64,000 nucleotides of DNA from Gordius sp. MW1. Lineage: Eukaryota > Nematomorpha > Gordioida > Gordea > Gordiidae. Of this stretch, positions 12,096-54,600 are shown one piece after another. The position numbers were made by a program, and so were the translations under genes. The notes under the pieces are model-generated. The model was not told where the DNA came from. It saw only the letters and a list, made by a program, of their open reading frames with translations, and did not search any database. The stretch's first letter is position 1. Every line of letters begins with the position of its first letter. The DNA is taken from positions 1,860,001 through 1,924,000 of the forward strand of contig OZ038531.1 of NCBI GenBank assembly GCA_964036665.1, read 5' to 3'.

Positions 12096-12217
12096 CCCAA
12101 CAGAAAAAATTATGATAATGTATATAATTATTTACTTGCTGTGAGGGAAATTTGTTAAATCTGTTAATCCTTATGACTGATCTTGTTCAATTTAATTCAA
12201 ATTTAAAAATTACTTAC

Positions 12218-12539
12218 AATAAATTTTGGGATGGCTCAGTATTTCCTTGATCAAGAGACTGATCTAGTTTAATCAAGCACAGTATTTTCCTTGAGGTACA
12301 ATTTAAACTTCTATTTTTATTAAAATCCTGGGGTCGAAAGTGGTTACTGCAGATACTTGAATGTTTTTTAAATTTAAATTTAGGGCACATCAATTTAATC
12401 CATTTAGACAATAACTCTGGATCTTTTGGAAATCTAAAAATATACATAAATTTATTTATAATTACTTGTGAAATGAAAGCCTTTTGCTATTTTCTTTGTT
12501 AAGGTAAGATATGGAGTTCTTTACTGAGCAAGACCTCAT
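12218..12539 (-). CDS. THAP-type zinc-finger protein, N-terminal exons
   Basis: Two exons, 12539-12466 (ATG) and 12433-12218, joined through a 32-nt intron with matching phase 2; the second ends at a canonical GTAAGT donor. Together they spell a THAP DNA-binding domain: Cys near the start, FPKDPELLSKW, then CSNHFRPQDF with the C-x2-H pair of the C2CH finger. The position where the second zinc Cys is expected (CSVKN-S) is Ser, so zinc binding may be impaired. THAP domains occur both in host regulators and in P-element-type transposases. The following exons were not identified. The first exon is supported by phase and family resemblance only. Confidence 0.6.
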
Positions 12540-13284: not shown

Positions 13285-13568
13285 TGAGATATAGGGATTG
13301 GAATTTATAATTGGAATCTAAGCAAATGCATAGTCTTATCGTAGCGTTTGAACTATTAATTTTCGAAGCGATAAAACATGGCGACATTCGAAATCGAACA
13401 TGAGAAACGATTGGTCGTCTCGTTTGGGAATACAAATTAAAATACAATATTAAATTATATAACGTAAAATCCCATATATAACATAAACGGTCAATTAACT
13501 CTCTACAGTATTAAATTATATAACGTAAAATCCCATATATAACATAAACGGTCAATTAACTCTCTACA
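13284..13568 (-). repeat. 3' LTR of Ty3 element 1
   Basis: 285 bp, missing the terminal TG. Contains two copies of a 61-bp unit (13448-13508, 13509-13569). The gag-pol stop codon lies inside it. Confidence 0.85.
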
Positions 13569-16500
13569 GTTCCCCCCTTTTCACAGATAAAATCCTTAAG
13601 GAACGCTGGAGGTTTCCGACTCCGCTGTGGGTATCTAGTTTCTTCCCTAGGCGTCCCTGCCTGGATTTGCGATTGATCTCTTGTGGTACTTGTACCCCTG
13701 TTTTGTATTTGTTCTCTTGGAGCACTTGTTCCCTCTTCCCTTTCTGATGGTATTCTTTGTGGCCACCCGTTCTCTTGTCCCAGAGTGGTCCAATTCAGGA
13801 TTTTCCGTTTCCTTACTTGATCCACGTGTCGGTGGTGATTCCTTCCCTGTGCCCATACATCGTAGGACCGACTACCATGCTTGGCTTTTATCGTGCCTTC
13901 TACCCATTTGCTTGGACCCAGAAACATGCGCACCCAAACCAAGTCTCCTACGTTGAACGTCCGCGGGTTCCCGGTCTCTACCCATTGTTGTGGTACGGTT
14001 TCCCTCAACACCTCCCATTCGGTTCGCATCCTTCTTTTCAGCATCATCTCTGCCGGGCTTTTATTGGTTGCGGGGTGTTTTGTAGATCTGTAGTTTTCCA
14101 AAAATCTACTCAGCCCTACTTCCGACTCGTTCCTAATGATGGCTTCTTTAATTAATCGTACGTATCTTTCCGCCAACCCGTTCGACGCCGGATGGTAAGG
14201 AGCTGTCCATCGTTGATTAATTCCCCTCGACTTGCAAAATTTCTGTAACTCCTGCCCTTTGAATTGGGGACCGTTATCTGATATTAACCAAGGTGGATTT
14301 CCAAATCTAGCGAACGTTTCGGCCAGTTTTTTTATAACGGTTGTCGCCGTGGTGTCTTCTAATTTAAACACCTCTACCCATTTCGAGCTATTGTCCACCA
14401 TCACGAGGTATGACTTACCCTTGAGAGGACCCATGATATCGATATGTACTTGGACCCATGGTTTATGGCTAGGTTGACACTCTATCAATGGTGCCCTCTT
14501 GGTCGCCGCAGCCGTGTAATTGCAACTCCGGCACCCTTTCGCTACGCTCAATAAATCATCGTCCAGAGTCGGCCACCATATATACTGCCGCGCCACTTCT
14601 TGCATTCGCTTGATACCTACGTGGCCCCTATGTAGACTTTGGAGTACCACTCCTCGTAACTTCGCCGGAATTAAAATTCGTCCCCCTTTGTAAAATATTA
14701 TGCTTTTGGTTTCGTGTAACTTTGGCAGGTGTTTTTCGTAGGTGCGTTTTAGACCACACGTGACCATTGTATTTTGTTTACCCCTAATCCATTCTTTTAA
14801 TTGCCGCAGCCCCGGATCCTCCAAGGTGTGTTGTTTTACCACGTCCAAAGATATAAACGGATTCATCGAGTCCTCTGGTATTTCCTCGCTAACCTGATAC
14901 GCGTGTTCGTTCGGATTTCTAGACAAAAAATCCGCCGCGTTTTCGGCTCCCTTGTTGTATTCGAACTTGGTCGTATAGCCCGATACCGTGAGCGCCCACC
15001 TGGTTAGGCGCGGTGACCACTGTTCCTTGCCCCTTTTGCTCTGATCGAATATATATATAAGCGGTCTATGATCCGTCATGATAGTAACGCTTCGACCTTG
15101 TACATATTCGTTGAACTTTTTTAGACCATACACCACCGCCAGGGCCTCTCGTTCGATCGTCGAATACCGGCTTTCGCTATCGTTTAATGCTCTTGAAGCA
15201 TAGGCCACCACTCTCCAATTCTCTCCTGGTGCTCGTTGCTGTAAGATGGCCCCTAACCCCGTACCCGAGGCGTCTACGACCAGGCCGGTCTCCCACTCTC
15301 CATTGAAGTACGCCAGAACGGGGGCTTTCGTAAGCGCGGACTTGATAGCTTCAAATGCTCCTTGCTGTTCTTCACCCCAGTGGTACATCACGTTCTTTTT
15401 CATGAGTTTCTGAATCGGGTGAATGATTTTGGCGTAGTCCTTAATGAACTTTGAAAAGTATGTTGTTAACCCAAGGAAGGACCTTATTTCGTTTTTGTTA
15501 GTTAAGTTTTTCCACTGCTTGACTAATTCGGCTTTGCTGTCGTTGATTTGAATCCCCTTGCTACTTATTACGTATCCCAAAAAGGTTACTTCCTTCGCCC
15601 ACAAGGTACTCTTGGCAATGTTCGGCACGAACCCCCACTTTTGTAACGTTTCTAGTACCTTGAGTAACCTCTCGTTGTGAATTTCCTCCGTCTCCCCTGC
15701 GATTAGGATATCGTCGATGTAAACCGCTACCCCTTCCATGCCTCCTAATATTTGGTCCATTGTCTTTTGAAAAATGGCCGCGGCACAATTTAAACCGAAC
15801 GGCATCCGGTTAACTTTAAATAGGCCCTTGTGCGTAGAGATAGTCAATCGTTGACTCGTCTCTGGCCCTAATTCGAGCTGTAAGTATGCTTTCGTAAGGT
15901 CCAGCTTCGTAAAATAGCGTGCATTATCAAGTTTATTCAGTAAGTCTTCGATTTTGGGTAAGGGGTACAACAACCCTTGCGCGTATTTATTTATAGTAAA
16001 CCGGTAGTCTATACATAATCGCAGAGTTCCATCGCTTTTTTTCACGGGTACCACCGGGCTGGCCCATCTTGAGAAATCGATTGGTTCAATCACCCCATCC
16101 TTGACCCATTTATTCAGCTCCTCTTCTACTTCTTTCTTCCACGCCATCGGCACCCTTCGAGCGGGGATAAATACGGGCTCTATGCCCTCTTTTAACGGCA
16201 CCTCCACCGTCATTCCCTTGACCGCTAGTGGGAGTACGTCTTGCTGGCCACCCCACTGCTTCATCACGTGCTGGATCGCGGCCTTGGTGTCCTTCGGTCT
16301 TTCTACGAAATTGACCGCGAACCGTTCCGCCGCAGCCCTCGAGTTCCAACGTATTTGACGCCAGATTTCGGGCTCGAACTCCTGTATCCAATCGATCCCG
16401 CACAACGGCGGCCCCGCTACGTCAGCTAGCAATAACGACAGCTGTTTCCTCGTGTTACCCATTCGGACATCGACTTGCACCTTGGCTACGATCCTTATTT

Positions 16501-17248
16501 CCTCGTGGCCGTACGCGTATACCGTCGGGACGGGCTCTTTGTTGCGTGGGATCTCCTTCGCCCATATTCGCGCCGGTATGATCGACACCGTCGCGCCCGT
16601 ATCAAAGATAAATTGGAACAAATCGTTATTAATGTATACGTCAACTGTTAACACATCTAAAGCATGGTTTAACCTGGGAATCCGGGCCGGTCCAGTCCAC
16701 GCTTCTCGTCCCGCCACCACGCTCCATGCCTCCTCGGACCCGTCCTGCAAGGTGCTTAGCCCCCCTTCTACTGTCTCGGCCGTTAACGCCAGTTCTCGTA
16801 GGCGGTCCCATTTGATATCATCTTCTGATAATAGCCTCGCCTGTAAGCTTCTATCGCGCAATCCTATAATAAATTGGTCGACGATTCTGTTTTGCAATTC
16901 TTCGTTTCCGAAGTTGCAGCTGTTAGCTCCGGCCTTGAGTCTATTAGCGTACGCGTCTATTGACTCTCCCTGGCCTTGTCGCATCTTTGAGAATTCGTGT
17001 CTCTTTGCTCTCCTACAAGGGTTCTTTCGGAATAACTTCTTTAACCGCTCTTTCGCTTCTTCATATGTCATCCCTGTCAACTCTTGCGGCCTATAATCCT
17101 CTAGAATTAATTGGAATGCATCCCCCTCGAGGCTGGTTAATAATAGAGCCGCTTTTTGCTCATCTGTCTCCGTCTTATTACTTCTAAGGAATAACTCGAA
17201 TTGAGTTAAAAACACGTCGATATCAGCCGTTGTTTTATATTTCTGCAT
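13556..17248 (-). CDS. Ty3 gag-pol polyprotein, single intact frame (1230 aa)
   Basis: Retrotransposon polyprotein in one open frame. Residues 1-190 are Gag-like (capsid fold, no CCHC zinc knuckle visible). The protease has DTGATVSIIP at 216-225. Reverse transcriptase runs from about 380 to 620 with the YIDD catalytic box at 510-513. RNase H starts near 658 (VVDASGTGLGA). Integrase has an HHCC finger (H873, H876, C906, C909) and the catalytic triad D937, D991, E1027, the last two 35 residues apart. An integrase C-terminal domain and a basic tail follow. All key residues are present, so the copy could be active. Gag is short and fused in frame to Pol, with no frameshift. The start is the Met about 36 nt inside the 5' LTR, just after the primer-binding region. 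Confidence 0.92.
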   Translation of the reverse strand: MQKYKTTADIDVFLTQFELFLRSNKTETDEQKAALLLTSLEGDAFQLILEDYRPQELTGMTYEEAKERLKKLFRKNPCRRAKRHEFSKMRQGQGESIDAYANRLKAGANSCNFGNEELQNRIVDQFIIGLRDRSLQARLLSEDDIKWDRLRELALTAETVEGGLSTLQDGSEEAWSVVAGREAWTGPARIPRLNHALDVLTVDVYINNDLFQFIFDTGATVSIIPARIWAKEIPRNKEPVPTVYAYGHEEIRIVAKVQVDVRMGNTRKQLSLLLADVAGPPLCGIDWIQEFEPEIWRQIRWNSRAAAERFAVNFVERPKDTKAAIQHVMKQWGGQQDVLPLAVKGMTVEVPLKEGIEPVFIPARRVPMAWKKEVEEELNKWVKDGVIEPIDFSRWASPVVPVKKSDGTLRLCIDYRFTINKYAQGLLYPLPKIEDLLNKLDNARYFTKLDLTKAYLQLELGPETSQRLTISTHKGLFKVNRMPFGLNCAAAIFQKTMDQILGGMEGVAVYIDDILIAGETEEIHNERLLKVLETLQKWGFVPNIAKSTLWAKEVTFLGYVISSKGIQINDSKAELVKQWKNLTNKNEIRSFLGLTTYFSKFIKDYAKIIHPIQKLMKKNVMYHWGEEQQGAFEAIKSALTKAPVLAYFNGEWETGLVVDASGTGLGAILQQRAPGENWRVVAYASRALNDSESRYSTIEREALAVVYGLKKFNEYVQGRSVTIMTDHRPLIYIFDQSKRGKEQWSPRLTRWALTVSGYTTKFEYNKGAENAADFLSRNPNEHAYQVSEEIPEDSMNPFISLDVVKQHTLEDPGLRQLKEWIRGKQNTMVTCGLKRTYEKHLPKLHETKSIIFYKGGRILIPAKLRGVVLQSLHRGHVGIKRMQEVARQYIWWPTLDDDLLSVAKGCRSCNYTAAATKRAPLIECQPSHKPWVQVHIDIMGPLKGKSYLVMVDNSSKWVEVFKLEDTTATTVIKKLAETFARFGNPPWLISDNGPQFKGQELQKFCKSRGINQRWTAPYHPASNGLAERYVRLIKEAIIRNESEVGLSRFLENYRSTKHPATNKSPAEMMLKRRMRTEWEVLRETVPQQWVETGNPRTFNVGDLVWVRMFLGPSKWVEGTIKAKHGSRSYDVWAQGRNHHRHVDQVRKRKILNWTTLGQENGWPQRIPSEREEGTSAPREQIQNRGTSTTRDQSQIQAGTPREETRYPQRSRKPPAFLKDFICEKGGTVES

Positions 17249-17284
17249 CCCCGTGTAGATTATCCTACTCGCACGTCGCCAAAC

Positions 17285-17571
17285 TGTTGAGATATAGGGA
17301 TTGGAATTTATAATTGGAATCTAAGCAAATGCATAGTCTTATCGTAGCGTTTGAACTATTAATTTTCGAAGCGATAAAACATGGCGACATTCGAAATCGA
17401 ACATGAGAAACGATTGGTCGTCTCGTTTGGGAATACAAATTAAAATACAATATTAAATTATATAACGTAAAATCCCATATATAACATAAACGGTCAATTA
17501 ACTCTCTACAGTATTAAATTATATAACGTAAAATCCCATATATAACATAAACGGTCAATTAACTCTCTACA
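17285..17571 (-). repeat. 5' LTR of Ty3 element 1
   Basis: 287 bp, TG...CA, with the same duplicated 61-bp terminal unit as its partner. It borders repeat X directly. Confidence 0.9.
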
Positions 17572-19177: not shown

Positions 19178-20335
19178 TTATATTTGTCTTCTGGTAGGTC
19201 CATTGCTATATGTGACAGATCTAATAGGTGATTTTAAATTAGTAGCTGCCTGGTGCTGCAATTCATAGCATGAAGGATGTATTTTGAAGCCATACAATCT
19301 AAATTATTAAATTTATTCATATTACATTTAAACCTACAATATTACAAATTCAATTGATTCATAAATATAAAATCTTTATTTGAATAGAAACTTATTAGTT
19401 TACTATTAACTAAAAATTATAAAAACAATAATAATACAAATTAAAATTTATAATCTACACAAGTATTGTATGCAAAACACCTATTTATAAAAAATAACAG
19501 AAGTATAATAAATATGTGATAAAAATTATAGAGCATCTAAAAATGATGTCTACATAATGTAAACTAATGCTATTACTAGATAACATTAAAATTATTTTTG
19601 AATTTGCTTACTTAGCTACAAATTCACTACTAGGTTTTTTTGGTCTATACTCTGGGTGAACCATAAAAAGCATATGTGGAAATCCTGTACCAAAATAAGC
19701 ACCATCAGTGTGTTGATGCTTTGATGATCGTGGATTATACATATCCATGCATTTTGGGCAATAAAGTTTAACCATGGCTTCACCTGGAACATCTGATAAT
19801 CCTATATAAAAAAATGTGTAAGTACGGCAGTGTATTTATATGATGATTTGTAATAAAAACCTATAGGTAACAAAGGTTGTGATTCACAATAAACTCTTGG
19901 GCAGTAGCCAAAATCTCCTTGTTGATATTTTTCAAGCTAACAATTATATAAATAACTAATTTTATTTTACCATTTGAGCTATTCCTCTATTTGTTAAAAT
20001 ATATCTTGCATGAATTAAACCATAAAGCATTTCAGCAGCTTGTTCAATTATATCGCTTTGGTGAGGATTGTCTTCCAAATCATCTTCTATTAAAAGGTTA
20101 AATTTAATAATTTGGTAAAATACCAGGCTCTAAGTCCAAAATCATATCCAATGCAAGTCTGTAGTGAGGAACTTGCTCGCTTAGTCCAGTTAAATTAAAT
20201 CTATCTTGGATATACTCCTCGTCTACCTAACTTTTGTACATAATTGTCTAAAATTAAACATACTTCACAAAAAAACTCATTCCCACGTAATCCGCAAAAC
20301 CATGTAATCCAAGAAACTTCTTCAGAACTGCTCAT
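19178..20335 (-). CDS. CSNK2B: Casein kinase II regulatory subunit beta, complete, six exons
   Basis: Regulatory subunit of the CK2 tetramer; dimerises through a zinc finger and recruits substrates. Coding exons in order: 20335-20264, 20226-20124, 20086-19971, 19936-19861, 19801-19612 and 19298-19178. All are GT/AG with consistent phases, giving 225 residues (vertebrate CK2 beta is 215). The protein begins [20 protein letters not shown]. It has the acidic loop (DLEPEDDLEDN), NRGIAQM, and the four zinc Cys in YCPRVYC and LYCPKCM. It continues with [20 protein letters not shown] and a [10 protein letters not shown]-terminal helix region. Three introns are only 37, 37 and 34 nt long; the last is 313 nt. 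The conserved autophosphorylation SSSEE start fixes the initiator Met. No defect seen. Confidence 0.95.
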
Positions 20336-21114
20336 TTTAGCTAGCGAAGGTGCGATGATTGGTCTTTTAGTCAAAAGTATTAGATTAAAGTCGCCATAAA
20401 AGGTAGCTAACGTTATTCTCGATAGCCCCTATAATTGTTATTAGGTTTATTTAATAAAATTTAATGTTAATTTAAATACAGTTTTGTAATTTTGTATATT
20501 GAAAATAATTTAATTTCAGTAAAAAGCTTATATAAATCAAATCTACGTATATTACGCATTGTAATTTTTATGTATAAATAATATTTATTATAAAAATTAA
20601 GAGGTACATTCAATCCCAACCAAAATACTTGTATTAGAGATATAAAATTTGCTTAATTTTGTCTTAACAATTGCATAAGTGAGCTTGCCTTCAGAATTAA
20701 AATTAAATATGCTAATGGTTTTATTCAATTTATTATAGTAAGCTCATGTTTTCAATTTTTTCTCTATACATTAAATATTATTTCATTTAATATAAACAAG
20801 CATTTATTCTTCCTGTGCGGAGCTTATGTCTATACATAAAATATTTATTATTGAGCTGGATATGTTAAAAATAATATAACAAAACAATGACAATAGCACA
20901 ATAATGTATCTATAAACCATAAATGCAATACAGTTAAAAAGTGAGAATCACTGCGCCTAAAATTTAAAAAAATAATATTAAAGCGATTTTTGACATTTAT
21001 CCGAAAAAAATAAATTTTAACATATTTACATAATTTTTTAAAATAAAGTTATTTTTATTATAAATATACTTCAGAAAATTACTCAAAATACTTTTAAAGA
21101 CAAATATTGAGGTT

Positions 21115-26592: not shown

Positions 26593-27460
26593 TTTTATAT
26601 AAAACAATCTAAAGGGCTAAGTTATAATATTGTTAAAAATATCATGCAAGATCGATTGATCACTGTTTTTGCCTTTTAAAGAAGGAAGTACCAATACATT
26701 CTAAACAGGAAAAATTGCATAGCAATTATATTTTTTCATCTTCGCCCCCCGCCCCACATAATTACCTGGCATAGTAAATAATGCTTTTCTACCTATAAAA
26801 CAGCCTAAAGGCTTACAAAAACTTTCTTAGGTCTAGATCCGATAAACTCATTATATATATCCTATTTTAATATGATGTATTCAAGAAAGAAGTATAGCTA
26901 AAGAGCACGTTCCTAAAGGGGGTAAGCAGATTTGTTCAAATTTTTCTGCCAGCCGGCCTGGACCGATTTTATAACTAAATTTCTCGTCCGGGCCCGCCCT
27001 AACTATTCTAAGTGTCCCGACAGTGCATGAATCGCGAGAGCTATAAGTGATGGTTTTAATTTTTAGTAATCATTTTTTAGTATTTTTCAACTATTTTAAT
27101 TGCTATGCAATTTATGGGCTCGTTTTTTGGTTGTCCGTCCGTTGTCCGTTGTCTACCCTTCCTATCTATTTGCATTGGGTATATTAGGTTATCGATTTTT
27201 TAAATTAATGCATGAGAAAGAGGTGCCCCACCCCTCATCTCTATCTCCCTCGCTGTGTTATTTTTTAAATTAATGCATAGGAGGTGCCCCACCCCTCATC
27301 TCTATCTCCCTCGCTTTCGGGCGGGGTCGGGTTTTAATTGCTACGTTAAATTAATGCATAAGTATATCTATTCGTTTTTGAATTGGGTAACATTGATATT
27401 AATTGCTATAATTACCCTATGCCCTCCACTACAAGGGTTTGGGTTAGAATCTCGGAGTTT
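26593..27460. repeat. Low-complexity and dispersed repeat DNA
   Basis: Contains two direct copies of AGGTGCCCCACCCCTCATCT (near 27220 and 27281) and the motif GCTATGCAATTTATGGGCTCG near 27113. That motif recurs inverted near 59225 beside copy B. No gene seen. Confidence 0.45.
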
Positions 27461-28900
27461 TTTTAGACTCTTATGATTGTTCCTGTTACTACCATTGCTA
27501 TTATGACTTTTTGGCCGTCTGCTGGCTACTGACCAATGAAAAAAATGACCATTGGCCAAAATGTGAATCCAAGTTTATTTTTTCGTTTTTTTTTGATTAT
27601 TATGATTGTTCCTGTTACTACCATTGCTAATACGACTTTTTGGCCGTCCGCTGGCTGACCGATGGAAAAAATGACCATTGGCCAAAATGTGAATCCAAGT
27701 TTATTTTTTCGTTTTAGTTTTGACTATTACGATTGTTCTTGTTACTACCATTGCTATTATGACTTTTTGGCCGTCTGCTGGCTGCTGACCAATGAAAAAA
27801 ATGACCATTGGCCAAAATGTGAATCCATGTTTATTTTTTCGTTTTTTTGACTATTATGATTATTCCTGTTACTACCATTGCTATTATGACTTTTTGGCCG
27901 TCCGCTGGCTGCTGACCGATGGAAAAAATGACCAATGGCCAAAATGTGAATCGAAATTATTTTTTTCGTCTTTTTTTGACTATTATGATTGTTCCTGTTC
28001 CTATCATTGATAATAAGACTTTTTGGCCGTCCGCTGGCTGCTGACCAATGAAAAAAATGACCATTGGCCAAAATGTGAATCCGAGTTTATTTTTTCGTTT
28101 TTTTTTGACTATTATGATTATTCCTTTTACTACCATTGCTATTATGACTTTTTGGCCGTCCGCTGGCTCCTGACCGATGGAAAAAATGACCATTGGCCAA
28201 AATGTGAATCGAAATTATTATTTTCGTTTTTTTTTGACTATTATGATTGTTCCTGTTCGTATCATTGATAATAAGACTTTTTGGCCGTCCGCTGGCTGCT
28301 GACCAATGAAAAAAATGACCATTAGCCAAAATGTGAATCCGAGTTTATTTTTTCGTTTTTTTTGACTATTATGATTATTCCTGTTACTACCATTGCTATT
28401 ATGACTTTTTGGCCGTCCGCTGGCTCCTGACCGATGGAAAAAATGACCATTGGCCAAAATGTGAATCGAAATTATTATTTTCGTTTTTTTTTTGATTATT
28501 ATGATTGTTCCTGTTCCTACCATTGCTATTATGACTTTTTGGCCGTCCGCTGGCTGCTGACCAATGGAATAAAATCACCATTGGCCAAAATGTGATTCGA
28601 AAATTTTTTTTTCGTTTTTTTTTACTATTATGAATTTATATCCACTTTTACCGTGTCCTGGCTGCTGACCAATGGAATAAAAGACCATTGGCCAAAATGT
28701 GATTCGAAAATTTTTTTCGTTTTTTTTACTCTTATGAATTTATATCCATTTTTACCGTGTGCTGGCTGCTAACCGATGGAAAAAAATGACCATTGGCCAA
28801 AGTGAGCATCAAATTTTTTTTCCCGTTTTTTTGGTTATCATTGACTTATAGAGTATCTGTTGGTACTGACCAATGGAGAAAAAATGACCATTCGCCAAAT
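27461..28900. repeat. Satellite, about 129-bp period, nine good and three degenerate units
   Basis: Each unit has TATGACTTTTTGGCCGTCCG, GCTGGCTGCTGACC, AATGAAAAAAATGACCATTGGCCA, then an A/T-rich part with GTTCCTGTTACTACC. Unit starts (GACTTTTTGGCC) are near 27503, 27632, 27760, 27889, 28017, 28147, 28276, 28406 and 28535. Every unit contains an inverted pair, CCAATG...CATTGG, able to form a hairpin. Apparent frames on both strands are repeat artefacts. Confidence 0.9.
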
Positions 28901-29340
28901 TTTTGATTTTTTTAATTAAAAATTGTTCAAATTCAACAAAAATTTCTTCCAACAATTCTGCAAATTCTTAACATTGTGATGTTTTATAATATAATGTTTG
29001 TTAGACCCATAATCACTAAAGGCCGTAAAAACTAATGTAATACGCAACTAGATGCAAACACTAAATCTAACCCTAACCCTTGCCTATATTACATTTTGCC
29101 TATATTACATTTTGCCTTACATGGAAAATTTGTATAAATAATTAATTAATCATTAGGCATTTAATACCCCCCTATAGGCATTCTCGCCCTTTCCCACCTT
29201 TCTCGCCCATAAATTGCATAGCAAATAGGATACATTTATACGAAGTAAAGATGAGTCGTCCCCCCTTCCCTTCCCCCCTTCCCTTCCCCCCTTCCCTTCT
29301 CCCCTCCCCTTCTCCTCTCCCCCTTCCCACGAGGGCCGAA
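28901..29340. repeat. Telomere-like motif and polypyrimidine tract
   Basis: CTAAATCTAACCCTAACCC near 29063 is followed by a duplicated TGCCTATATTACATTT. At 29255-29332 there is an almost pure C/T tract of CCCCTTCCC units on the plus strand. A similar arrangement, inverted, is near 36720-36810. Confidence 0.6.
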
Positions 29341-31134
29341 GGCCCGAGTTTAATTAATTCACGATTTTTTGATAGAAGAACTGCTATAATAAATATTATG
29401 CAATAAGTTAAAAGGTGACTTTGGCAGGATTTATACTTTTTATGGAAAAATTTTATTAAGCCCTAATTGCCCAATTCTTGTTAGGGTGCCTTATAGGACC
29501 GCCCGGAAATCTAGATTTACCAGCAGTTGTCTGGCCGACGTGTGAGCAAGGTCGGGCAGCTGGTCGAGCATTTCTGGTCTCTAGTAAGCATATTGAGTCA
29601 ATGGTCACATACTGTAGGAGTGTTGTTATAAATTTGATTTTTACAAATTTAAACGTGCAAACATTTTTGAATATTTAATCGATTAAGCATCTCATCCTAT
29701 ACCTTAATATAATGTTCTAATTCTTACAACAGCTGTTCTAAACTCGTGTTCAATTTCGAGGATTTAAATAGCTAATTATTTTCAGATGCCTCAACCGGTA
29801 TATTGTACATTAGTAAATAGAACTACAGTAATTATTCGTCATTGTTGTTGGATATCATTAAAAAGGAGTTTATAAAATTTATAACTCTATTCTTAAAGCC
29901 CATAATAACCATTAACTATAAGGAAAATACATAGGCGAGGCCGGGGCTAGTTATAGCCCGAGGCTATTTGTATCTTTATAATTGTTTTTAAGATAATTAT
30001 AAAACATTAAAATTTTAATCATATAAGTATTTTGTCATAAGGTATGATTAATAAATTTATTTTTGTATACGAGAAACGTTTTTTGAGCTGGGTCATAAAA
30101 GTTTTAGTTGCATATTAAACTAATAGTTTTATCGTATAAAGGGATACCTTTTCTATATAAAAGACTACTAATTAAATTTCTATTCGCAATTTAACAAGTC
30201 AAATTACTCATAAATTTAATCGTATTTTATCTCATAATGACACATTTATTAAACAGAAACTTCGTTTAACACTTTAATTAATTGTAGTTTGAAAGAGGAA
30301 TAGACTTTGATTATACATTAATATACTATTAAAAGACTTTTTCCATTTTAAAATCCGTCTTTTGTGGGTACAAAAGCAGGTTGTCATCTTGGCCCATATT
30401 ATTTGTGATGGGTTTAATATAACCTTAGTTTGCTCTAGGTTTTTTATAATATAATAGTTAAAAAAAATAGTGATACGTTAGGCTATACTACCCCTTGAAC
30501 AAGACTATGACTTGCTTTAGTCACTTTTAAAATGTTTAGTTAATTTTTTTAAACTCAATTTGTGGATAATTATATTTTAAAAAATCTTAAATTGCTATAG
30601 TAAAATATACATTGAAAGAATTATTCCAATAGGAAATTCGAAAAAATAATTTTCAGCTTTTTTTAAAGCGATTAAATTTTTTCTGTCTATTCTATCCCCG
30701 GTTTTCCCCATTTTTTTATGTTTGCTTGGTTTAATAAACTCTTACATTAGATAAATACACAAATAACCTTGACCTATATGTATTATTTATTAAGAAATGA
30801 AGAACAAGAGCCAGCCATACAATACAATTGACATTACAAACTATTTTAAATAAATGGGAAGAATAAATAATATAGATTTTAATAATAAAAAGTTTTATTC
30901 TGAATATTACTAATTGAAGTTTCAAAAAGTAAACAAATAATTACTAGGCCACATATTAAACAATCTCTTCTTTGGTGGTTGACAATTGCTAAATAAATAG
31001 AGTTTTTTTAAAGAAAATAGCACTTAAATAGGTCGAATGAACGCGCATTTTTTAGCTGATAAATTTATTACTTTTTCCTAACTATATAGCTGAAGGAATT
31101 AAATAATTGTTCTATTTAAATTTTTAAACTTATC
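29341..31134. other. AT-rich DNA upstream of the micro-exon locus
   Basis: No supported gene. A GC-richer island at about 29480-29600 is open for some 60 codons on the plus strand, but I could not assign it. The promoter of the locus starting at 31135 should be at the right end; no clear TATA box is distinguishable in this composition. Confidence 0.35.
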
Positions 31135-33098
31135 ATGCCGCTAATTTGGAAAATTATTTTCACCTTATGTTTGCTTATAATTATTCCTCAAATTCAAGGT
31201 TTATAATAACAAAACATGATTATTACATTACAATCTTTAAAATTGATTCGCTAATATATTTATAAAATATTGCTATAAATGTTTTAGGAAAAAATGGTCC
31301 ACATTCAAGTTTATCTTATAAGTTTTTTTCGTTTATAAAACTTTCACTTAATTTTATTCATTATATTTTATATGATCATTATCTGTATTTGAATTGTAGA
31401 AACCGTCAGTTTTAGCTCAAGCTGTAAGTGTGATAAAATATTGAAAATAAAAATTTTTTCTTTTATTACATGATAACAAATTATAAACGTTAATATATTG
31501 TTAATTACAGTTTTATTTTAAATATTTATTAATATTTAACAGGTTCAAGTTCAACAGATAAAACCGGTGTGACTGGTAATAATAATAATTTTAATTAACT
31601 TTACTTTATTTTTATTAAAAGTGAGATCATTCACTTCTCAACTAAATGGACAAGTCTGGGGTTATACTGAGCACCTCTTTCCTAATGGCACTAAAAATCA
31701 AGGTACGATTGATATAATACTAATTTTAATTTTTTCAATAAAAAACAATTCTTATTTTTTATCCTATAGAAAAATTTGGAAAGCCACCCTCTGGATGGGG
31801 TATATTACAATTCATTATTTTTAGCTTGAGATGGTAGAATAATTATGTTCATGTTTTTGAAAAGATGCTGCTAAAGACGCTTTGATTAAATCAGGATGTA
31901 AGTTTATTGATATGGAATTTTTATTCACAAATAGTGTTATTAGTAATGAATACATTGTTTCGCACCAAACGTAACATATTTATAATATATACATTTGATC
32001 GGTATTAAAATTATGTATACTATAAATACTTAAACATTAATCAGGTGAAAACATTGGTGGAATAAGAGGTAATAAATTCTTTTTAAATATAATTATGAAA
32101 ACAACATAATAATGAACTAGAAAATAGAGTTTTAAAATTTTAATGTCTTGCAAAGTTTTTAGACAAATTTTTAAAATAAACCCTTATTAAACGTATAAAC
32201 AGTCACTGGGGATCTGGATGTAACCCTCGAGAATCGAATTACATTATTAAATTTCGGTTTGAATGGACTGGTTTTAGGAATTTATGGAATTTATTACGGA
32301 CTAGGCTTAAAATATAGATAATAATTTTAATCTATCCATCTTTCTAAAACTTAAAGATAAACTTATTGACATTATAATAAATAAAAATAGTAATTACACT
32401 AATGTTTTTAAAATTAAATAATCTATTAAGCATATGCTAATATCTCAAAAAGTCCGAAATCTAGATATAAATTTTGGCGAGTCTTCGGGACAAAAAAAAA
32501 TTAATTTGAAATTCTATATTTTATAAAATATTTTGTTTCACTTCGGTACCCAACAGAGGAACAACCAAAACTATCGAGTCGTCCTAATAAATCAATAAAA
32601 AGTAAACGAGAAATTACTTAAATGAGATTTACACATTCCTATATACTAGCTCTAAGTTAAATTAATCTTCATTTCTCTTATTTTTAACGAGCAGAGGGCT
32701 CGGTGAAGTCGAAATCTATTGAAAAGGGTAATGAGAAATTTTTATGATAGTAATAAAGAGTTATGTAATAATTCTAGGCAGTGGCGAAGGATCTGGCCAG
32801 GCAGTAAAGCCAGGTAAATTCATATTGTAATTTAATATTATGGACTCAATATAATTTTTTCCACATAATAGATAATGTGAAGCATCCATTACACAAATTC
32901 TGGTCACTGGGTCAACGTAATGGACCTAAGTTTGCCATAGTGCGCCGTAAGTTCAATTATTGCAATAATTGTTTGATAACTTTAATTTTCAAATTTAAGT
33001 TAAAAAATTAAGTGTTTTGAATAAATAAAGTCCATAGGCAAATTAATAATTAAGCTGAATATATTATTTTAGGTAGCAATAGAAATACTGGATATTGA
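31135..33098 (+). CDS. Micro-exon gene encoding a small secreted protein, two possible 3' ends
   Basis: Rebuilt from splice sites. Exon 1 (31135-31198) encodes an ATG and about 21 residues of hydrophobic signal peptide. Internal exons: 31400-31423 (24 nt), 31543-31566 (24), 31622-31702 (81), 31770-31799 (30), 31865-31897 (33) and 32045-32068 (24). A stop-containing exon 32203-32321 follows, then 32557-32601 (45), 32695-32727 (33), 32778-32813 (36), 32872-32946 (75) and the last exon 33073-33098. Every junction is GT/AG and in phase 1, and every internal exon is divisible by three, so any can be skipped. Ending at 32321 gives 132 aa with a hydrophobic C-terminus (LNGLVLGIYGIYYGLGL). Skipping that exon gives 164 aa, Gly/Lys-rich and hydrophilic. 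AATAAA follows both ends (near 32368, 33233). This is the layout of flatworm micro-exon genes, which encode secreted, alternatively spliced proteins. No sequence homologue recognised. Confidence 0.72.
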
Positions 33099-33599
33099 AA
33101 TATAGCCTACTAAGGACTAGCGAAACTTAATTGTATACTACTAGATGACTACTACCCCATTAATCAGACACAATTGATTCCCCTATAACTTATTAGTTTA
33201 TTCAACACACGTGATGCGGTGCAAATGTAAAGAATAAAATTACATAAAACAAAATAAATGTGTCTTGTCTATATATTATTAATATTGTGTTGGAGCACGT
33301 CATTTAAGACAAGCGCTGTTCAAGGAGTAAACATAATAGAGCGCAACAATTATTTTTTAGGTGACCTCTCTACCACATAAATAACAACTTACATTTGTAA
33401 TTTAAAAAAATCTTGTCTATTCTTCATAAAAAAAATAAAATTATGATACTCAAAACTCTTATACTTATAAGAACTTTTTCGCGCATAAGTAATTAAAGAA
33501 ATTAATGCCTACTGAGGGTGGCGTATAAAAACCAAGAAACATTAAATATACTCCAACTAATTAAAAAAGACATTTAGATTAATTAAACCAAGTAACACT
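33099..33599. other. 3' flank of the micro-exon gene
   Basis: AT-rich, with AATAAA at about 33233 and 33252. No gene seen. Confidence 0.4.
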
Positions 33600-41029: not shown

Positions 41030-42788
41030 CTAAAACTCTTCATGATAACGTAACGGAGGATTTCGCTTTCTGGTCGATCGCCTTAACGGAATCGGACTTG
41101 CAACTTTTTCAACATTCGTTTCCAGACTAGTATTCGAACTTGCAACTTTTTCAACATTCGGTTCCAGACTAGTATGGTTAGTTTCGACGAACTGGGATTG
41201 CATCCTGAATTTTAACTGATCCGCGTGTTTCCGTTTAATTCCTTTATCAGTGCGAACATTATATGAATATGGACCTTTACGTTCTATGATAAATCCTTGG
41301 TACCAACCCGCTTTAATTTCATTCCGGATCCATACTGGATCTCCAAGATTAAATTCCCTATAACATGCTTTTCGGTCATGATAGTTCTTTTGTTTAGCTA
41401 ATCTCTCCTTCCACTTTTCTTTCGGATCTGGTCGAATAAGGTCCAACGCTGTCCTTACTCTTCTTCCCAACAACAATTCCGCCGGAGCTTTACCCGTGGT
41501 TGCCTGAGATGTATTCCTGTATGTCATAATTATTTGTTGAAGGCATAATTCTTTCTCTCCCCCTGATTTTCTTGCTGCCCAGTATCTTGATTTTAGCGTT
41601 CGGATCATTCTCTCAGCTAATCCATTTGTTTTGGGGTGATATGGAGTGGATGTTACGTGCTTAATGTTGTTGTTGTTACAAAATTTTGTGAATTCTTCAC
41701 CGACAAATTGTGGTCCATTGTCCGATACTATTTGCAAGGGAATACCGAACCTGCAAAACCAATTTCGTAACTGCCTCACAATTTGTGGTCCTTTAATCGA
41801 CGATAGTGTGGCTACCTCCACCCATTTCGATAATGCATCAATTAAAACCAACCAATAATTTCCTTCGACAGGTCCGGCAATATCTATATGAACTCGATCC
41901 CAAGGACGGTCAGGTACGGACCAAGAATATAAGGGAACTTCTTGTTCGGCTTGTCGGCCTTCTTGACAACCGTCACATTCCTTTACAAACAAATCAATAC
42001 TCTTGTCCATTCCGGGCCACCAAACATAATATCGGGCTAAATTAAGCATTCCTGTAATACCGGGGTGTCCTTGGTGTAATATTTTTAAAACTAAATTTTG
42101 TAGGTTCCTCGGTATTATTAACCGATTTCCACACAATAATAATCCATCTTCAAATGACAGTTCCTCCATTCGATTGTAGTACGTTTTCATGTCAAAACGG
42201 CATTTTTTTAAATCAAACCGCCATTTACGGTTAATCGCTGAAATTAATTCACGACAAAAAGGATCTTGTTTAATAGATGTTTTTAGCATTTCATAATCTA
42301 ACTTTAATTCATCTAACATAAGTAATCCTACGTGATTGATCTGATCCGTTTCAAGGTATTTTGGATCTGGCAGTCTTGACAATGCATCAGCGCATTGATT
42401 GTTTTTTCCTGATCGGTATTTTATGTCGTATTGATATCCATTTAAAAATAAAGCCCATCGAATTAATCGATTATTGATCACTTTCGGTAAATCCCGATGA
42501 TTCCCGAATAATCTCTCTAGAGGTTTGTGATCCGTCATCAATACAAATTTTCGACCCCGTACGTATTGATCGAATTTCTGAACACCGAACACAATAGCTC
42601 GCGCTTCCCGATCAATTGTAGAGTATCGTTTTTCGGACTCGCTTAACGTCCTGGACGCGTATGCAATAGCTCTTTCGGACCCGTCTGCATATAAGTGTGA
42701 TAGTACAGCACCTACACCAGTTTCAGAAGCATCTACCGTTAGGTATAACGGCAATGAGGTTGAATACGGTACCAAAGTATTTGACGTT
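41030..42788 (-). pseudogene. Ty3 element 2 Pol, C-terminal part (RNase H, integrase)
   Basis: RNase H begins LTVDASETGVGAVLS and has TDHKPL. The integrase finger has HQGHPGI and CDGCQ. The core has VHIDIAGP (Asp), VSDNGPQF (Asp) and GLAERMI (Glu), so the DDE triad is complete. The C-terminus is basic and holds an imperfect repeat of about 20 residues (LEPNVEKVASSNTS / LETNVEKVASPIPL). Removing the insertion and one GAAAG copy would put this part in frame with the reverse-transcriptase half. Confidence 0.88.
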
Positions 42789-42793
42789 GAAAG

Positions 42794-43371
42794 TATCGTA
42801 TTCCTGGAAAATACGATTTAAGTACTAAAAAAGGTCTAAGAGAAGGGGAATCATCAACATAAATAAATTGGAAGATCTGAGGAAAGTTATTGGAAAATAT
42901 TGGGTAAGGGGGATAGGAAATTTCGAGGGCCGGGGAAAACCTTTTCCCCGGGAATGGTATTGTATTATTTCTACACCTCACATGTCTATAAATTTTATTG
43001 ATAACATCACAGAATCAACTAATTATCGAAATATAAAAATGTATTAATTATTGATATCAAAATTATCAACAATCCGATAAGACGCGTATATCGAAAATCA
43101 CTCACGCGTAAGAAATAACAAATACGTATAAGCATAAGCGCGTCGGGGGGGGAGGAATATACGCGTACTAGAAATTAAATGTACAGGAATAGAGTTCTAT
43201 GTACTACACATTAACTAGCATGTCCATGAAAGGCAGATGGTGTCGTAGACTACTACATTCTGAAGAACAAAAGAGAATAAGAGTACCTCGCGTATTATCA
43301 TATACGTGTTAGAAAGTTAGCGGCGTTGTATGGGGGGGGGGGTAGGTATCCTCGTATCGAGAGATACGATA
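42794..43371. mobile_element. Hairpin-ended element family P, copy 2, nested in Ty3 element 2
   Basis: 578 bp between 5-bp duplications GAAAG (42789-42793 and 43372-43376). The ends read TATCGTATTCC... and ...GATACGATA, an 8-bp inverted repeat, and each end folds into its own hairpin (ATCGTATT...AATACGAT; TCGTATC...GATACGA). Interior landmarks: a CCGGGGAAAAccTTTTCCCCGG palindrome, TATAAA, and GCGCGTCGGGGGGG. No coding capacity. Related to 11323-11845. Confidence 0.75.
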
Positions 43372-44729
43372 GAAAGCATCAGTTTAACATCGTTAAAAAT
43401 CTTCTGCTCTTTAGCCGTCCATTTCCAACCTATTGATGAGCCCGTCAATGCATGCAAGGGTGCGCATTTTTCGTGTAACATTGGAATGAACCTTTCCTGA
43501 TAATTAACTAGTCCTAAAAAGGAACGTAGTTCTTTTTTGTTTTGTGGTTGTTGAAAATTAACAATGGCTTCCACTCGCTCTTGAGTTGGGTGGATCCCTG
43601 TTGCATCGATCACATGTCCCAAATATTTAACGGAATTTTGGAAAAATTTAACCTTTTCCTTCTTTGCTTTTAGACCAGCGTCCTGTACCCTTTTTAGTAC
43701 CTCGTTGAGATTTTTCAGGTGATCCTTTTCATTTACTCCTGTAACTATGATATCGTCTAGAAGTACCCCAGTATGGGGAATCCCCTCTAATAATTCTTCC
43801 ATATAACGTTGGAATAAATTTGGCGCTATTGAAAGTCCAAATGGAAGACGTTTATATCGATAATAACCTAAATGTGTTGCAATAGTGAGATAATGTCGCG
43901 ACTTTTCTTCGACCTTCATCTGAAGATAGGCATCCCGTAAATCAATTACTGTAAATTTTTGCCCTCCTGCGATCTTCAGAATCAAATCGTCAAATGTCGG
44001 AAGTAGATGGTTGTTTAAAGTTAGGAAGGGGTTAATAGTCACTCTAAAATCTCCGCAGATTCTAATGGACTTATTTGATTTTAATACATTTACAATAGGA
44101 GTTGCCCATGTTATTGGTGTTGTTGCAGGATCAACATGTTCAATTATCTCTTCGTCCAATAATCTTCTGATTTCCTCTTCAACTTTATTCCTTAAAGGGA
44201 AAGGAACCCTTCGTGCAGGCACTGCTATGGCTCTGGCTTCTTCCTTTACAAAAAGATTCACCTCATAATCTTTAATACACCCAGTGCCATCACTGAACAC
44301 ATTCGTATACTTTTCAACCAACTCCTCTTCTATGTTTTGAGGTTTTTCTTCTATAGCATTAATTTTAACTAGATGAGGAAGTTGTAGGTGAAAGGCTTCC
44401 ATCCAGTTTAACCCAAATATGGCATCATCTTCTACCGTAGTTACAATAGCTGTTAACTTTTTGTTTAAATTAACATAGACCTGTGTTTCTCCACATATAG
44501 GAACTGGACTATTCCCAAAAGCTTTTATCTTGGAGCATGGTGTTAATTTAGGTGAATTTAACATGTTGTAGATACTCTTGTTGATTAATGATACTGATGA
44601 GCCAGTATCATATAACATCTTGAAATTTTTTTGATTTATCCTTACATGGATGTATGGTTTAAGGTGATTAAAGTCATAAAGTTTGCCAATTGTATTAATA
44701 ATCTGGTTACTTTGTTTGAGGTCCTGCAC
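43317..44729 (-). pseudogene. Ty3 element 2 Pol, N-terminal part (protease, reverse transcriptase)
   Basis: Protease DTGSSVSLIN, then reverse transcriptase with PARRVPFPLR, a palm segment YKRLPFGLSIAPNLF and the catalytic box LLDD (both Asp kept, Leu in place of the usual Tyr/Phe). It continues to the connection region ending DVKLML. After this the genuine frame stops at 43377, where the 578-bp element begins; the residues beyond are insertion sequence. The C-terminal part continues at 42788. Otherwise open, so inactivated only by the insertion. Confidence 0.85.
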
Positions 44730-45481
44730 ATTTTTGCAAAATGTCCTTTATGATGACAAATGGAACATTCTTTTAAAAATGCTGGACATTGCTTTATTGC
44801 ATGTGACTTACCACATCTATAGCAATTCCTTATGAATGATTGTTGATGATCATCCTTCTTTGTAGCAAATTGTTTTATTGATTGTCTATTCTTTTGATTA
44901 GAGTACATTGGATTTGGTTTTTTATAATTTTGAATTTTGTTTAATTCATTTGAGGAAGAATTGACTTCATCATTTGCAAGATGCATGGATTCTGCTAAGT
45001 TAAAAATGTCATTGAAGGTCACATCTAGTCCTGTAGGCTTTACTGCATCCGGCCATCTAGCTCTAACGTCTATCTCCAATTGTGTATTATGCAGTCCGTG
45101 CAAAAATTGATCTCGCAATCTTTCATCCAACAATTTAAAATGACAACATTCTGCAGAAGCTTTCAATCTAGTGACATATTCAATCAATGATACATCTACT
45201 TGTTTTACACAACGAATAAAATTTAGTCTTGATTGGAATATGGTTGATTTCGTTAGGAATACCTTCTTAATTAATTTGATTAAATCTTCATATTCCAATG
45301 AGGATATATTATCTGGATAAACAAAGTTGATAAGTAATTCCACATGTTTCTGGCCCATATATCCCAATATAGTTTTTGTTCTAGTTTCTTTTGGGACATG
45401 TTTAGACTCAAAAATATTATCTAGGGTGAACAAATATGTATTAATGTTATCACCTGCCTTATATTGAGGTATTCCTTCCAT
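44642..45481 (-). CDS. Ty3 element 2 Gag, two zinc knuckles
   Basis: 279-residue structural protein that packages the element's RNA. A helical capsid-like region covers residues 1-185. A basic segment is followed by two zinc knuckles: CYRCGKSHAIKQC (C-x2-C-x3-H-x4-C, one residue shorter than the usual CCHC) and CSICHHKGHFAKMC (canonical C-x2-C-x4-H-x4-C). The start is the first Met, about 22 nt inside the LTR. The gene overlaps pol by about 88 nt, and pol is in the -1 frame, so Pol was probably made by frameshifting. I see no canonical slippery heptamer; the A-run GCAAAAATG in the overlap is a candidate. Confidence 0.88.
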   Translation of the reverse strand: MEGIPQYKAGDNINTYLFTLDNIFESKHVPKETRTKTILGYMGQKHVELLINFVYPDNISSLEYEDLIKLIKKVFLTKSTIFQSRLNFIRCVKQVDVSLIEYVTRLKASAECCHFKLLDERLRDQFLHGLHNTQLEIDVRARWPDAVKPTGLDVTFNDIFNLAESMHLANDEVNSSSNELNKIQNYKKPNPMYSNQKNRQSIKQFATKKDDHQQSFIRNCYRCGKSHAIKQCPAFLKECSICHHKGHFAKMCRTSNKVTRLLIQLANFMTLITLNHTSM

Positions 45482-45503
45482 TTTTGTTTATCGACCGCGC
45501 CAC

Positions 45504-50524: not shown

Positions 50525-50864
50525 TGTAGAGGCTCTTTCGCACTCTACTTTCCCTTGACCCCGTCTAGGCGAATTCTATCAAGTGATTTTTATTTTAATA
50601 GCCCCTCGCTTGTACTTAACCATCACGTGATTTTTATTTTAATAGCCCCTCGCTTGTACTTAACCATCAGGTGATTTTAATTTTAATAGCCCCTCGCTTG
50701 TACTTAACCATCACGTTATTTTTTATTTTAATAGCCCCTCGCTTGTATTCAATCATCGCCTGATTATTCAAATTATAATGGGCTCGCGCAGCTAGATAAG
50801 CACAACTTTTAAAACTAACATTTATTATTCGTTTTTTCGCTAAATAATGAAAAAAACTACTTCA
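50525..50864 (+). repeat. 5' LTR of element 3
   Basis: 340 bp, with about four tandem copies of a 44-bp unit (GTGATTTTTATTTTAATAGC, then CCCTCGCTTGTACTTAACC). Confidence 0.93.
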
Positions 50865-50879
50865 TTTGGTGACCCAAAA

Positions 50880-51665
50880 ATGTCCACGCAACCATCTGAT
50901 ATGGAGGTTAAAAGCGAAAATGCCACATATTTTAAACTGCCACAGTTTAACAATATAAACCCCCGCTCATGGTTCATCCAAATAGAGGCTCTTTTCTTGG
51001 TAAGAAAGATAAAAAAGCGAAGCTACCAAAGTTGGGTACTTAATAGAAGCCTTGCCACTATCGAAATTCAAGACATCCTACAAAATATGCCCGACATTTT
51101 ACCCTATACAACCATGAAAGCAGCCATCATAGACCGCACTAGCCAATCCGATTCTGCTAGACTTCGTGCTCTTCTCACAACTGTCGAATTAGGAGATCGC
51201 ACCCCATCCCAGCTTCTGCGTTTCATGAAAAATCTTCTGGGAACGAATTCCATGGATGAACGAGTTCTTAAAGAACTTTGGTTAGAAAAACTTCCAAAAA
51301 ACATGACCGGCATTTTGGCAATTGTTTCTGACGAGCAGTCCCTCTCCAAATTGGCCGAAACTGCGGACAAAATTGTAGAGACCTACCACAACTCCACATG
51401 TCCAATTGTAAATGTAGTCACGGAAGATGAATCGACTCGGCTTAGGGAGATGATTGCAAAACTCACACAGGAGGTACAAAATTTAAAAATCTCAATCAAT
51501 AGGCCACGTGATCGTTCCAACTCGAGACGCCGCAATCCCTCTACCGTTCGCCACCCTAGCGCGCATATTCAACCAAATATACTTTGTTGGTACCATTACC
51601 GCTTTAAAGACAAGGCGCTCAAATGCGTGCAACCTTGCGCATTTAACCCCTCCTCGACAAACTAG
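50880..51665 (+). CDS. Element 3 Gag
   Basis: About 261 residues from the Met at 50880, chosen because the upstream ATG at 50847 lies inside the LTR and ahead of the primer site. A capsid-like region opens with YFKLPQFN and contains [21 protein letters not shown] basic Arg/Ser-rich stretch follows, then the atypical finger [18 protein letters not shown] (C-x2-H-x9-C-x3-C) in place of a CCHC knuckle. Pol starts in the -1 frame immediately downstream (protease near 51740), so a ribosomal frameshift is expected; the site is not obvious. Confidence 0.85.
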
Positions 51666-51679
51666 TAGACCACCCAGGG

Positions 51680-54600
51680 ATGGCGACGCCTGGACTTGGT
51701 CTAAAACTTAGTCGCCTATTTTACATATTCGACAAATCCACGGGTCAGCGATTTCTCATTGACACAGGCGCAGAAATTTCCGTTATTCCGCCTTCTCGAG
51801 ACCATTCCTTGACCCCTTCATATGTGCAACTTCAGGCCGCCAATTCTACCCCTATCAAAACATATGGCCAAAAGCTTTTCACTTTGGACCTCGGCCTACG
51901 CAAAGAATTTAGATGGATTTTTACAATAGCAGACGTTAAACAGCCAATCATCGGAGCCGATTTTCTTAATCACTACCATCTAGTAGTTGATATAAAAAAG
52001 AAGCAGCTTTTCGACACTCAAACGACATTAACATCTGCAGGCAAGGCTACATTCGCTACGTCAATCAACATACAAGTTGGGATAATTGGCACCTCCCCCA
52101 TCAAATCACTACTTCAGAAGTATGCCTCCATAGTGTCCCCTTCTGATTATAAGGCTCAAGTAACTCATAGCACTCAACACCATATCCACACCAACGGCCC
52201 CCCGGTTCGCTCAAAACCAAGGAGACTCTTCCCGGACAAGCTTAAGATTGCCCGAGACGAATTTACTCACATGCTCGAACTTGGTATAATCCGTCCCTCT
52301 AACAGTGACTGGTCCTCACCCCTGCACATGGTACCCAAGAAGGCCGCGGGAGATTGGAGACCTTGTGGCGACTATCGCATGCTCAACAGTCGTACAATTC
52401 CCGACTGTTATCCCCTTCCCCACCTCCATGATTTTGCGCTGACCCTTTGCAATAAAACGGTATTCTCAAAGATCGACTTAGTCAGGGCATACCACCAAAT
52501 TCCAATGGCCCCCGAGGATATTTCTAAAACCGCCATCACAACCCCGTTCGGTCTTTTTGAATTTCTTCGCATGCCATTTGGCCTTCGCAACGCTGCCCAG
52601 ACGTTTCAACGCTTTATGGACCAAGTTTTTAGAGAACTTGATTTTGTTTTTGTTTACCTTTACGACGTACTCATCGCGAGTTCTTCCATTGATGAACACC
52701 ACAATCATATTAGACTGGTTTTTGAAAGACTCAAGTCTTTCGGTATTAAAATCAGTCAGGATTAATGCGTATGGTGTCAAAACGAAATTAATTTTCTGGG
52801 ACACAAAATCACCCCTCAAGGTTTGTCACCCCTTCAGGACAAGGTGGAAGCAATCCTCAATTTCCCACAGCCTACTTCAATGACTCAGTTGAGACGCTTC
52901 TTAGGGATGATTAATTTTTATAGACGGTTTATTCCGATGTGTGCCGATTTACTCAAACCTCTCACCGATTTGCTCGACGGTTCAAAGAAGACAATTTCCT
53001 GCACCCCGGAAGCTTCGACTGCTTTTAACAACGCCAAACTCGCTTTAAGCAATGTCGTGCCTCTCTCCCATCTTCAAAAAGACGCTCAACTCTCAATCAC
53101 CACCGACGCCTCCAACTCAGCTGTAGGAGCCGTATTACATCAAACATCTAACGGTAATACGCTGCCTTTGGCCTTTTTTTCCCAAAAGCTAACAAAAACT
53201 CAACAACGATACAGTGCATTCGGTCGCGAATTATTAGCAATATATTTAACAATCCGCCATTACCGCCATTTTTTAGAAGGTCATGAATTCACTATTTATA
53301 CAGACCACAAGCCACTAACTTATGCTTTCAGTACACCTATCGACAAATACTCCCCGCGGGAGATTAGACAGTTCGACTATATTTCGCAATATACTACCGA
53401 TCTCCAATATATAGCTGGCAAATCAAATGTAGTCGCTGACACCCTCTCAAGGTCTGAAATTGATTCCGTTGATTTTAAAGACAGGCCCCTAGTAGAAAGG
53501 TTAGCTTTGGCTCAGATGGAAGAAAAGTCGGCATTTCAGGACCTAAAGTCCCTAAAATTAACGCAACTTCCTATACCTGGCTCTGATTTGACCGTGCAAT
53601 GCGACATGTCCACAACCTCACCTCGACCACTTGTTCCAACTTCACTCAGACGCGTAATTTTTGATAACTTCCACAACTTATCACACCCTGGCACGCGTGC
53701 AACACTTAAGCTGATTTCACGTCGATATGTTTGGCCCTCCATCAATAAGGATGTAAGGAAATGGGCCAAATCATGCGTTGCTTGCCAAAAATCGAAGATT
53801 CATCGTCACATAAAAGCCCCTTTAGGCACATTTGCTGAACCTGACGCTCGATTTAGCCACGTCGATCTCGGTCCACTACCACCGTCGAATGGATATACCC
53901 ACTTAATTACCATTATTGACTGTTTCACACGATGGCCTGTGGCCATGCCGATCCGTGACACCTCAGCCCAAACGGTTGCAAAAGCTCTGATTAAGTATTG
54001 GATAGCTGACCTCGGAGTACCATCAAGCCTCACAACAGATAGAGGTTCCCAGTTTGAGTCCCAATTATTTCGGAATCTCACGCAACTCCTTGGTGTAAAT
54101 CACATCACAACCACTGCCTATCATCCACAAGCCAACGGCATGATTGAGAGATTTCATCGACAGTTGAAAAGTTCCTTGATGGCACAAGGTGACACAAACA
54201 AATGGGATGAGCTCTTACCATTAATTTTGCTTGGCATTCGAACCACAATCAAGGAAGACTTAGGTTGCACTCCAGCCGAATTAGTTTATGGCACTACACT
54301 TAGACTTCCCGGCGAATTTTTTACGAACTCAAGAACACCTCATAACGCCTCCGAATTCATTAAATGCCTAAAACAACATTTTTACCATTTACCTTTTAAA
54401 AAAGTCAGGACACAATTGACAAATGCGAGTACAACTTCACTTCTTAAGGACTGTAAATACGTTTTTATCCGTAATGATTTCGTTCGAAAAAGTTTGGTGC
54501 CACCATATGACGGCCCGTTCAGAGTAAAGTCCAAACATGCTAAATATTTTATTATTGAAAAAAACGGAAAAGCTGACTCAGTTTCGATCGAGCGATTGAA

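Follow-up and report, generated by a model that had tools for sequence, protein, structure and literature searches.

A chain of short exons sharing one intron phase lies on the forward strand of a genome that, judged by its mitochondrial COX1, belongs to a horsehair worm, and the core of this chain in a single phase exceeds chance, as computed against randomised loci. The window, i.e., the whole stretch of DNA analysed, comprises 64,000 nt (C5:1860001-1924000 of a genome of 211.8 Mb in 12 contigs). We consider it fairly probable that the locus is a real gene of a Gordius-like worm, in which a signal-peptide exon is followed by about eight phase-1 exons of 24-81 nt and a short last exon, and from which secreted variants are made. 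The gene structure is convincing, and the splicing mechanism is proposed by analogy.

The phase-1 exon chain measured against chance

All 13 exons of the original prediction are present letter for letter at the lengths given, the internal ones with AG/GT borders, and the spliced frames of both the 132-aa and the 164-aa products are open. The prediction had also argued from the chain being all in phase 1, with ten of ten internal exons divisible by three. This argument is circular, since the sites had been chosen to hold a frame open and a shared phase alone therefore proves nothing; what stands is the phase-1 core, which was recovered by a phase-agnostic chain finder that allows any intron phase. 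The splice model of this finder was trained on 20 loci of the same genome encoding CCT chaperonins (PF00118) and proteasome subunits (PF00227), in a first round on 24 introns obtained by frame-consistent joining of family matches (3817 codons) and in a retraining on 108 introns from the finder's own predictions at the training loci. That the model was refined on its own predictions counts against the gene-structure reading; the 24-intron family-match run and generic matrices agree with the result of the retrained model. The splice sites of this genome are weak for an animal, with G at +5 in 25% of donors and T before AG in 68% of acceptors, and the training introns are 21.8% GC. Training-gene exons have a median length of 114 nt, and 4.5% of them are no longer than 36 nt in a list that omits exons below 2 bits, which trims short ones; the intron phases 0/1/2 number 58/27/23; by these exon sizes and intron phases the locus differs from conserved genes. 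As a control outside the training set, the top minus-strand chain in the window (score 62.7) is the casein kinase 2 beta (CK2-beta) gene (19612-20406, minus strand, ordinary exons, about 11 kb from the locus), whose 120 best matches listed all belong to PF01214. The window also holds a THAP-domain frame at 12214-12486 on the minus strand (Pfam PF05485, E 2.6e-9) and long frames that by eye resemble gag-pol of LTR retroelements, at 13556-17320 (-), 41030-45487 (-) and 50844-54790 (+).

At the locus, the first-round finder returned ten exons, eight of them consecutive and in phase 1-1, one of these eight being the filler 32357-32389. After retraining, with introns scored as neutral and limited to 700 nt, all seven exons returned were in phase 1-1, namely E3 (33 nt), E4-E7, E10 (36 nt) and E11. 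Overall, the finder recovers E3 (33 nt), E4-E7, E10/E10L and E11, all in phase 1-1, and E12 depending on the setting; the recovered core (31543-32813) is a run of seven to nine symmetric phase-1 exons according to setting. A filler exon at 32357-32389 or 32431-32451 was forced by the 400-nt intron limit and was not accepted.

Neither the score nor the run was reached in Markov-2 shuffles of the locus (0 of 400 and, with either of two intron scorings, 0 of 500), nor, in eight of eight combinations, in block-30 and local-Markov shuffles, which preserve the GC patchwork (0 of 400 for the score and 0 of 400 for the run). Generic matrices with a codon term likewise gave 0 of 300 in each of four settings. 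The exon count alone was reached in 1 of 400 and 4 of 500 (neutral introns) Markov-2 shuffles and, in one block/local combination, in 1 of 400. The forward strand of the locus reaches 29.3 and its reverse strand 9.8; with AT-rich scoring the values are 65.1 and 25.5. Outside the locus, the longest symmetric runs in both strands of 266 kb (the window, the 20 training loci and 13 other 10-kb stretches, about 0.13% of the genome) have six and four exons. The run of six, in phase 0 in a minus-strand chain at 26.8-29.6 kb, was set aside as it overlies a tandem array of 129 bp (27458-28633, 9.1 copies), which is partly open on the minus strand. Scored by hand-set generic splice matrices that lack a coding term, the chain does not differ from the rest of the window, and under a harsh setting (neutral introns, penalty 7, introns of at most 400 nt) the locus ranks only eighth on the plus strand of the window. 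The codon score of the 132- and 164-aa spliced forms is 0.10-0.11 bits per codon versus 0.35 in the training genes.

Gene model, exon borders and gene ends

Exon posteriors were computed by forward-backward in six settings with an acceptor cut-off of -5 bits (Table 1).

Table 1. Exons of the locus, with positions in the window and the support for each
Exon	Position	Strand	Evidence
E1, start exon	31135..31198	+	MPLIWKIIFTLCLLIIIPQIQ + 1 base, phase-1 donor of 2.6 bits; signal-peptide-like
E2, as proposed, 24 nt	31400..31423	+	Doubtful; posterior <=0.032 in six of six settings
E3, better as 33 nt	31543..31575	+	Posterior 0.70-0.97 versus <=0.012 for 24 nt
E4, 81 nt, phase 1-1	31622..31702	+	Posterior 0.43-0.99; N-glycosylation sequon NGT
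E5, 30 nt, phase 1-1	31770..31799	+	Posterior 0.26-0.97
E6, 33 nt, phase 1-1	31865..31897	+	Posterior 0.56-0.95; acceptor weak, -0.6 bits
E7, 24 nt, phase 1-1	32045..32068	+	Posterior 0.86-0.99
E8, proposed alternative stop exon, hydrophobic tail	32203..32321	+	Unproven; terminal-exon posterior <=0.002
E9, as proposed, 45 nt	32557..32601	+	Unsupported; acceptor -6.2 bits, posterior 0
E10, phase 1-1	32692..32727	+	36 nt from 32692 / 33 nt from 32695
E11, 36 nt, phase 1-1	32778..32813	+	Posterior 0.69-0.95; 61% GC
E12, 75 nt, phase 1-1	32872..32946	+	Posterior 0.59-0.88 if introns are scored as AT-rich, otherwise 0.02-0.13
E13, last exon, stop	33073..33098	+	Posterior 0.15-0.43

The posterior exceeds 0.5 in all six settings for E3 (33 nt), E6, E7 and E11 and in five of the six for E4 and E5, and E10 and E12 are favoured under AT-rich intron scoring. 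Among the exons first proposed, E2 and E9 are unsupported, E3 is better at 33 nt and E10 has two acceptors. The posterior of E9 is zero because its acceptor falls under the cut-off. The 24-nt form of E3 ends at 31566, both forms being in phase, and is the one chosen by generic matrices with neutral introns. The two acceptors of E10 form a GAGCAG tandem, with posteriors of 0.07-0.55 for 32692 and 0.04-0.23 for 32695, and the E10 acceptor is weak (-1.7 bits).

The revised model has 10 exons and a coding sequence of 438 nt (145 aa), with introns of 344, 46, 67, 65, 147, 623, 50, 58 and 126 nt and a GC content of 40.9% in exons and 21.1% in introns. The mature form of its product has a pI of 9.9 and carries a single cysteine beyond the signal as well as one N-glycosylation sequon. 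In the reading that we favour the main product, of about 145 aa, is basic and probably secreted and mostly unfolded.

Both ends of the gene are model-dependent. E1 has a hydrophobic core of 3.07 over 12 residues, and 388 kb of strand contain three phase-1 first exons of such signal-like character, E1 among them, by thresholds set after E1 had been seen. Its posterior is 0.09-0.57 when modelling begins at 30.7 kb; when AT-rich scoring is applied and modelling reaches back to 28.9 kb, 29251-29347 gains 0.39-0.93 as a start and E1 lies outside the 20 exons listed. This upstream phase-1 continuation (29.25-30.98 kb) was set aside by judgement because 29251-29347 and 29923-29949, both part of it, overlap sequence that recurs throughout the genome. 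Dispersed repeats, copied genome-wide, lie at 29300-29377 and 29920-30076 (of 843 candidates, 40 were scored). At the 3' end, E13 competes with 33077-33105 (0.21-0.43) and, with neutral introns, 33361-33380 (0.32-0.36); under neutral introns other starts and stops score equal or better and the chain extends to 34411.

Host lineage and relatives of the locus

A flatworm origin, as the comparison with flatworm micro-exon genes would suggest, is contradicted by the mitochondrion (C12, 14,798 bp). Its COX1, translated with the invertebrate code, has its best match in Gordius sp. VVA-2019 (95% identity), followed by Gordionus alpestris (87%), Parachordodes (81%) and Gordionus wolterstorffii (80%), and the remaining ones among the best 120 of 7999 matches come from arthropods, none above 67%. 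The AAA codon in PTGIKIFSW, a stretch of COX1, is read as Lys, at what we take to be a conserved position, under code 5 and as Asn under the flatworm code 9. Because of the 95% identity with Gordius, the host is, on COX1, a horsehair worm (phylum Nematomorpha) and not a flatworm. A bryozoan origin was rejected too, on COX1 and because the gene order of Bugula and the layout of Flustra, with all genes on one strand, differ from those of this mitochondrion (PMC2678162, PMC3285623); kinorhynch gene orders (PMC5068742) do not match it either. Horsehair worms parasitise insects and related animals. Copies or fragments of COX1 with internal TGA are found in the nuclear genome on C1, C3, C4, C5 and C8 (24 matches including the mitochondrion); the copy on C8 scores nearly equal, and C4 has four pieces of equal score. 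In coding regions of C12 (L010, L011), peptide stretches recur on the opposite strand, e.g., EETGVGAAMAASS, and look like inverted repeats inside genes such as nad5.

In a search by exact-word sharing only, with the 164-aa form as a query, no homolog was found at E <=10 among 5.8 billion proteins, 28 candidates having shared words with it. The database includes at least one Gordionus nuclear protein, a CK2-beta (P0141) that is 87% identical to the query from the CK2-beta gene. Compared by DNA with the whole genome, very common words being skipped, the locus matches itself alone, and peptide queries of 134 and 71 aa match only their own exons at E up to 1. No sister gene was found in the 266 kb scanned (about 0.13% of the genome). 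Pfam holds no family for the two forms of the product and Rfam none for 29-36 kb, and the single PDB match, 1ouv (E 0.05 over 40 residues), was taken as chance. The original prediction is supported as far as it proposes a chain of small symmetric phase-1 exons that follows a signal-peptide-like exon and encodes an orphan protein. Genes of micro-exon design are easily missed by annotation. Among the titles and abstract openings listed from the open-access literature, no report was found of such genes outside flatworms and aphids, nematomorphs included.

The micro-exon genes (MEGs) of schistosomes and other parasitic flatworms are described as encoding small secreted products that carry a signal peptide, from many short exons whose lengths are mostly multiples of three (PMC10526429, PMC5825161). 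The locus resembles them in its short frame-keeping exons and small product and, if E1 is the start in use, may share the signal peptide: it has 10 exons, and eight of its eight internal exons are 24-81 nt long, divisible by three and in phase 1, beside the 10-20 short exons of 6-81 bp, mostly a multiple of three, given for a schistosome MEG (PMC10526429). However, by the strict schistosome criterion symmetric exons of 6-36 bp make up about 80% of the coding region (PMC5825161), whereas exons of 36 nt or less hold 192 of 438 nt (44%) here; exons of 81 nt or less hold 348 of 438 nt (79%). The 145-aa product has no match to the motif FL..F X6 W p(K/H/R) reported after the signal peptide of schistosome MEGs (PMC10526429), the locus introns are 46-623 nt versus 100 to almost 5000 bp reported for S. 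mansoni, no second copy was found in the genome of this locus, and the nematomorph COX1 places the host in another phylum. The assignment of the locus to the MEGs thus holds for its architecture, with small phase-1 exons and an orphan product, and fails on the exon-length fraction, the motif and the flatworm origin.

Aphid bicycle genes, putative plant-gall effectors, offer a second comparison. They have many small internal exons, almost all of which begin at codon position 2 (termed phase 2 by their authors, phase 1 here), as do the internal exons of the locus. In contrast, the locus lacks the CYC motif, which is absent from some bicycle homologs as well, and its mature form has one cysteine; bicycle genes are found in aphids, phylloxerans and scale insects, whereas the COX1 here is nematomorph, and 476 are reported for Hormaphis cornu versus the one gene found here. 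By the tests made, the gene lies outside both the schistosome MEG family and the bicycle genes. If spliced as modelled, it would nevertheless work like a micro-exon gene by analogy, i.e., as a secreted orphan from which exons can be lost without breaking the frame.

Competing readings and their meaning

In the gene that we favour, E1 would be the start in use and the product would be secreted. Single exons could be skipped without a frame break, and swaps through the 33/36-nt tandem acceptor of E10 or the 24/33-nt donors of E3 would also keep the frame, so one locus could, in the manner of schistosome MEGs, yield a set of related secreted variants. Such a product may act at the interface between worm and host.

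It is possible, though less likely, that the locus is instead an ordinary small secreted protein gene with constant splicing, in which the shared phase is a leftover of its origin and no variants are made, examples being a cuticle, gland, mucus or egg-string protein. The lack of a second copy in the searches above is consistent with this, the basic hydrophilic tail (pI 10.4) suits a structural or adhesive protein, and adult horsehair worms are free-living. However, the uniform phase and size are unlike those of the conserved genes of this genome, and no repeat of at least 18 nt matching one exon to another along its length was listed, so that recent exon duplication is not visible.

The original prediction also included a choice of C-terminus, in which E7 joins either E8, giving a membrane form, or the downstream exons, giving a soluble form, with two poly(A) sites. 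We regard this switch as doubtful. E8 is open, has 34% GC versus 20% in introns and encodes a tail that ends in KYR and contains 19 consecutive residues with a hydropathy of 1.45. Yet its acceptor is weak (-1.8 bits), the proposed E9 was rejected, and hydrophobic stop exons comparable to E8 have a frequency of 0.32 per kb, which places E8 within chance; since about 0.2 such exons are expected in its 623-nt gap, the switch is not accepted. E8 may also serve as an internal exon of 54 nt (posterior up to 0.13), or may be no exon at all. The AATAAA signals said to follow both stop exons are uninformative, as the 2.3 kb scanned contain 11 of them.

That the chain is a product of chance, with splice sites chosen in AT-rich non-coding DNA for the sake of an open frame, agrees with the low information in the splice sites of this genome and with the unremarkable standing of the chain under generic matrices alone, but is very unlikely given the randomised loci under Markov, block and local-composition nulls, those under generic matrices with a codon term, and the low-scoring reverse strand.

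A real phase-1 gene giving rise to secreted variants is thus the reading that we retain. A broader proposal, which we advance tentatively and hold to be rather unlikely, is that horsehair worms independently evolved micro-exon genes of their own (orphan, secreted, in phase 1 and diversified by splicing) as candidate host-control factors; if true, theirs would be the third lineage with this design, after flatworms and aphids. If splicing is confirmed, the same gene design would have arisen in flatworms, sap-feeding insects and horsehair worms, which would suggest that selection has convergently favoured frame-safe exon shuffling in host-directed proteins, and the locus would provide a sequence handle on secreted proteins of hairworms that homology searches and standard annotation would miss.
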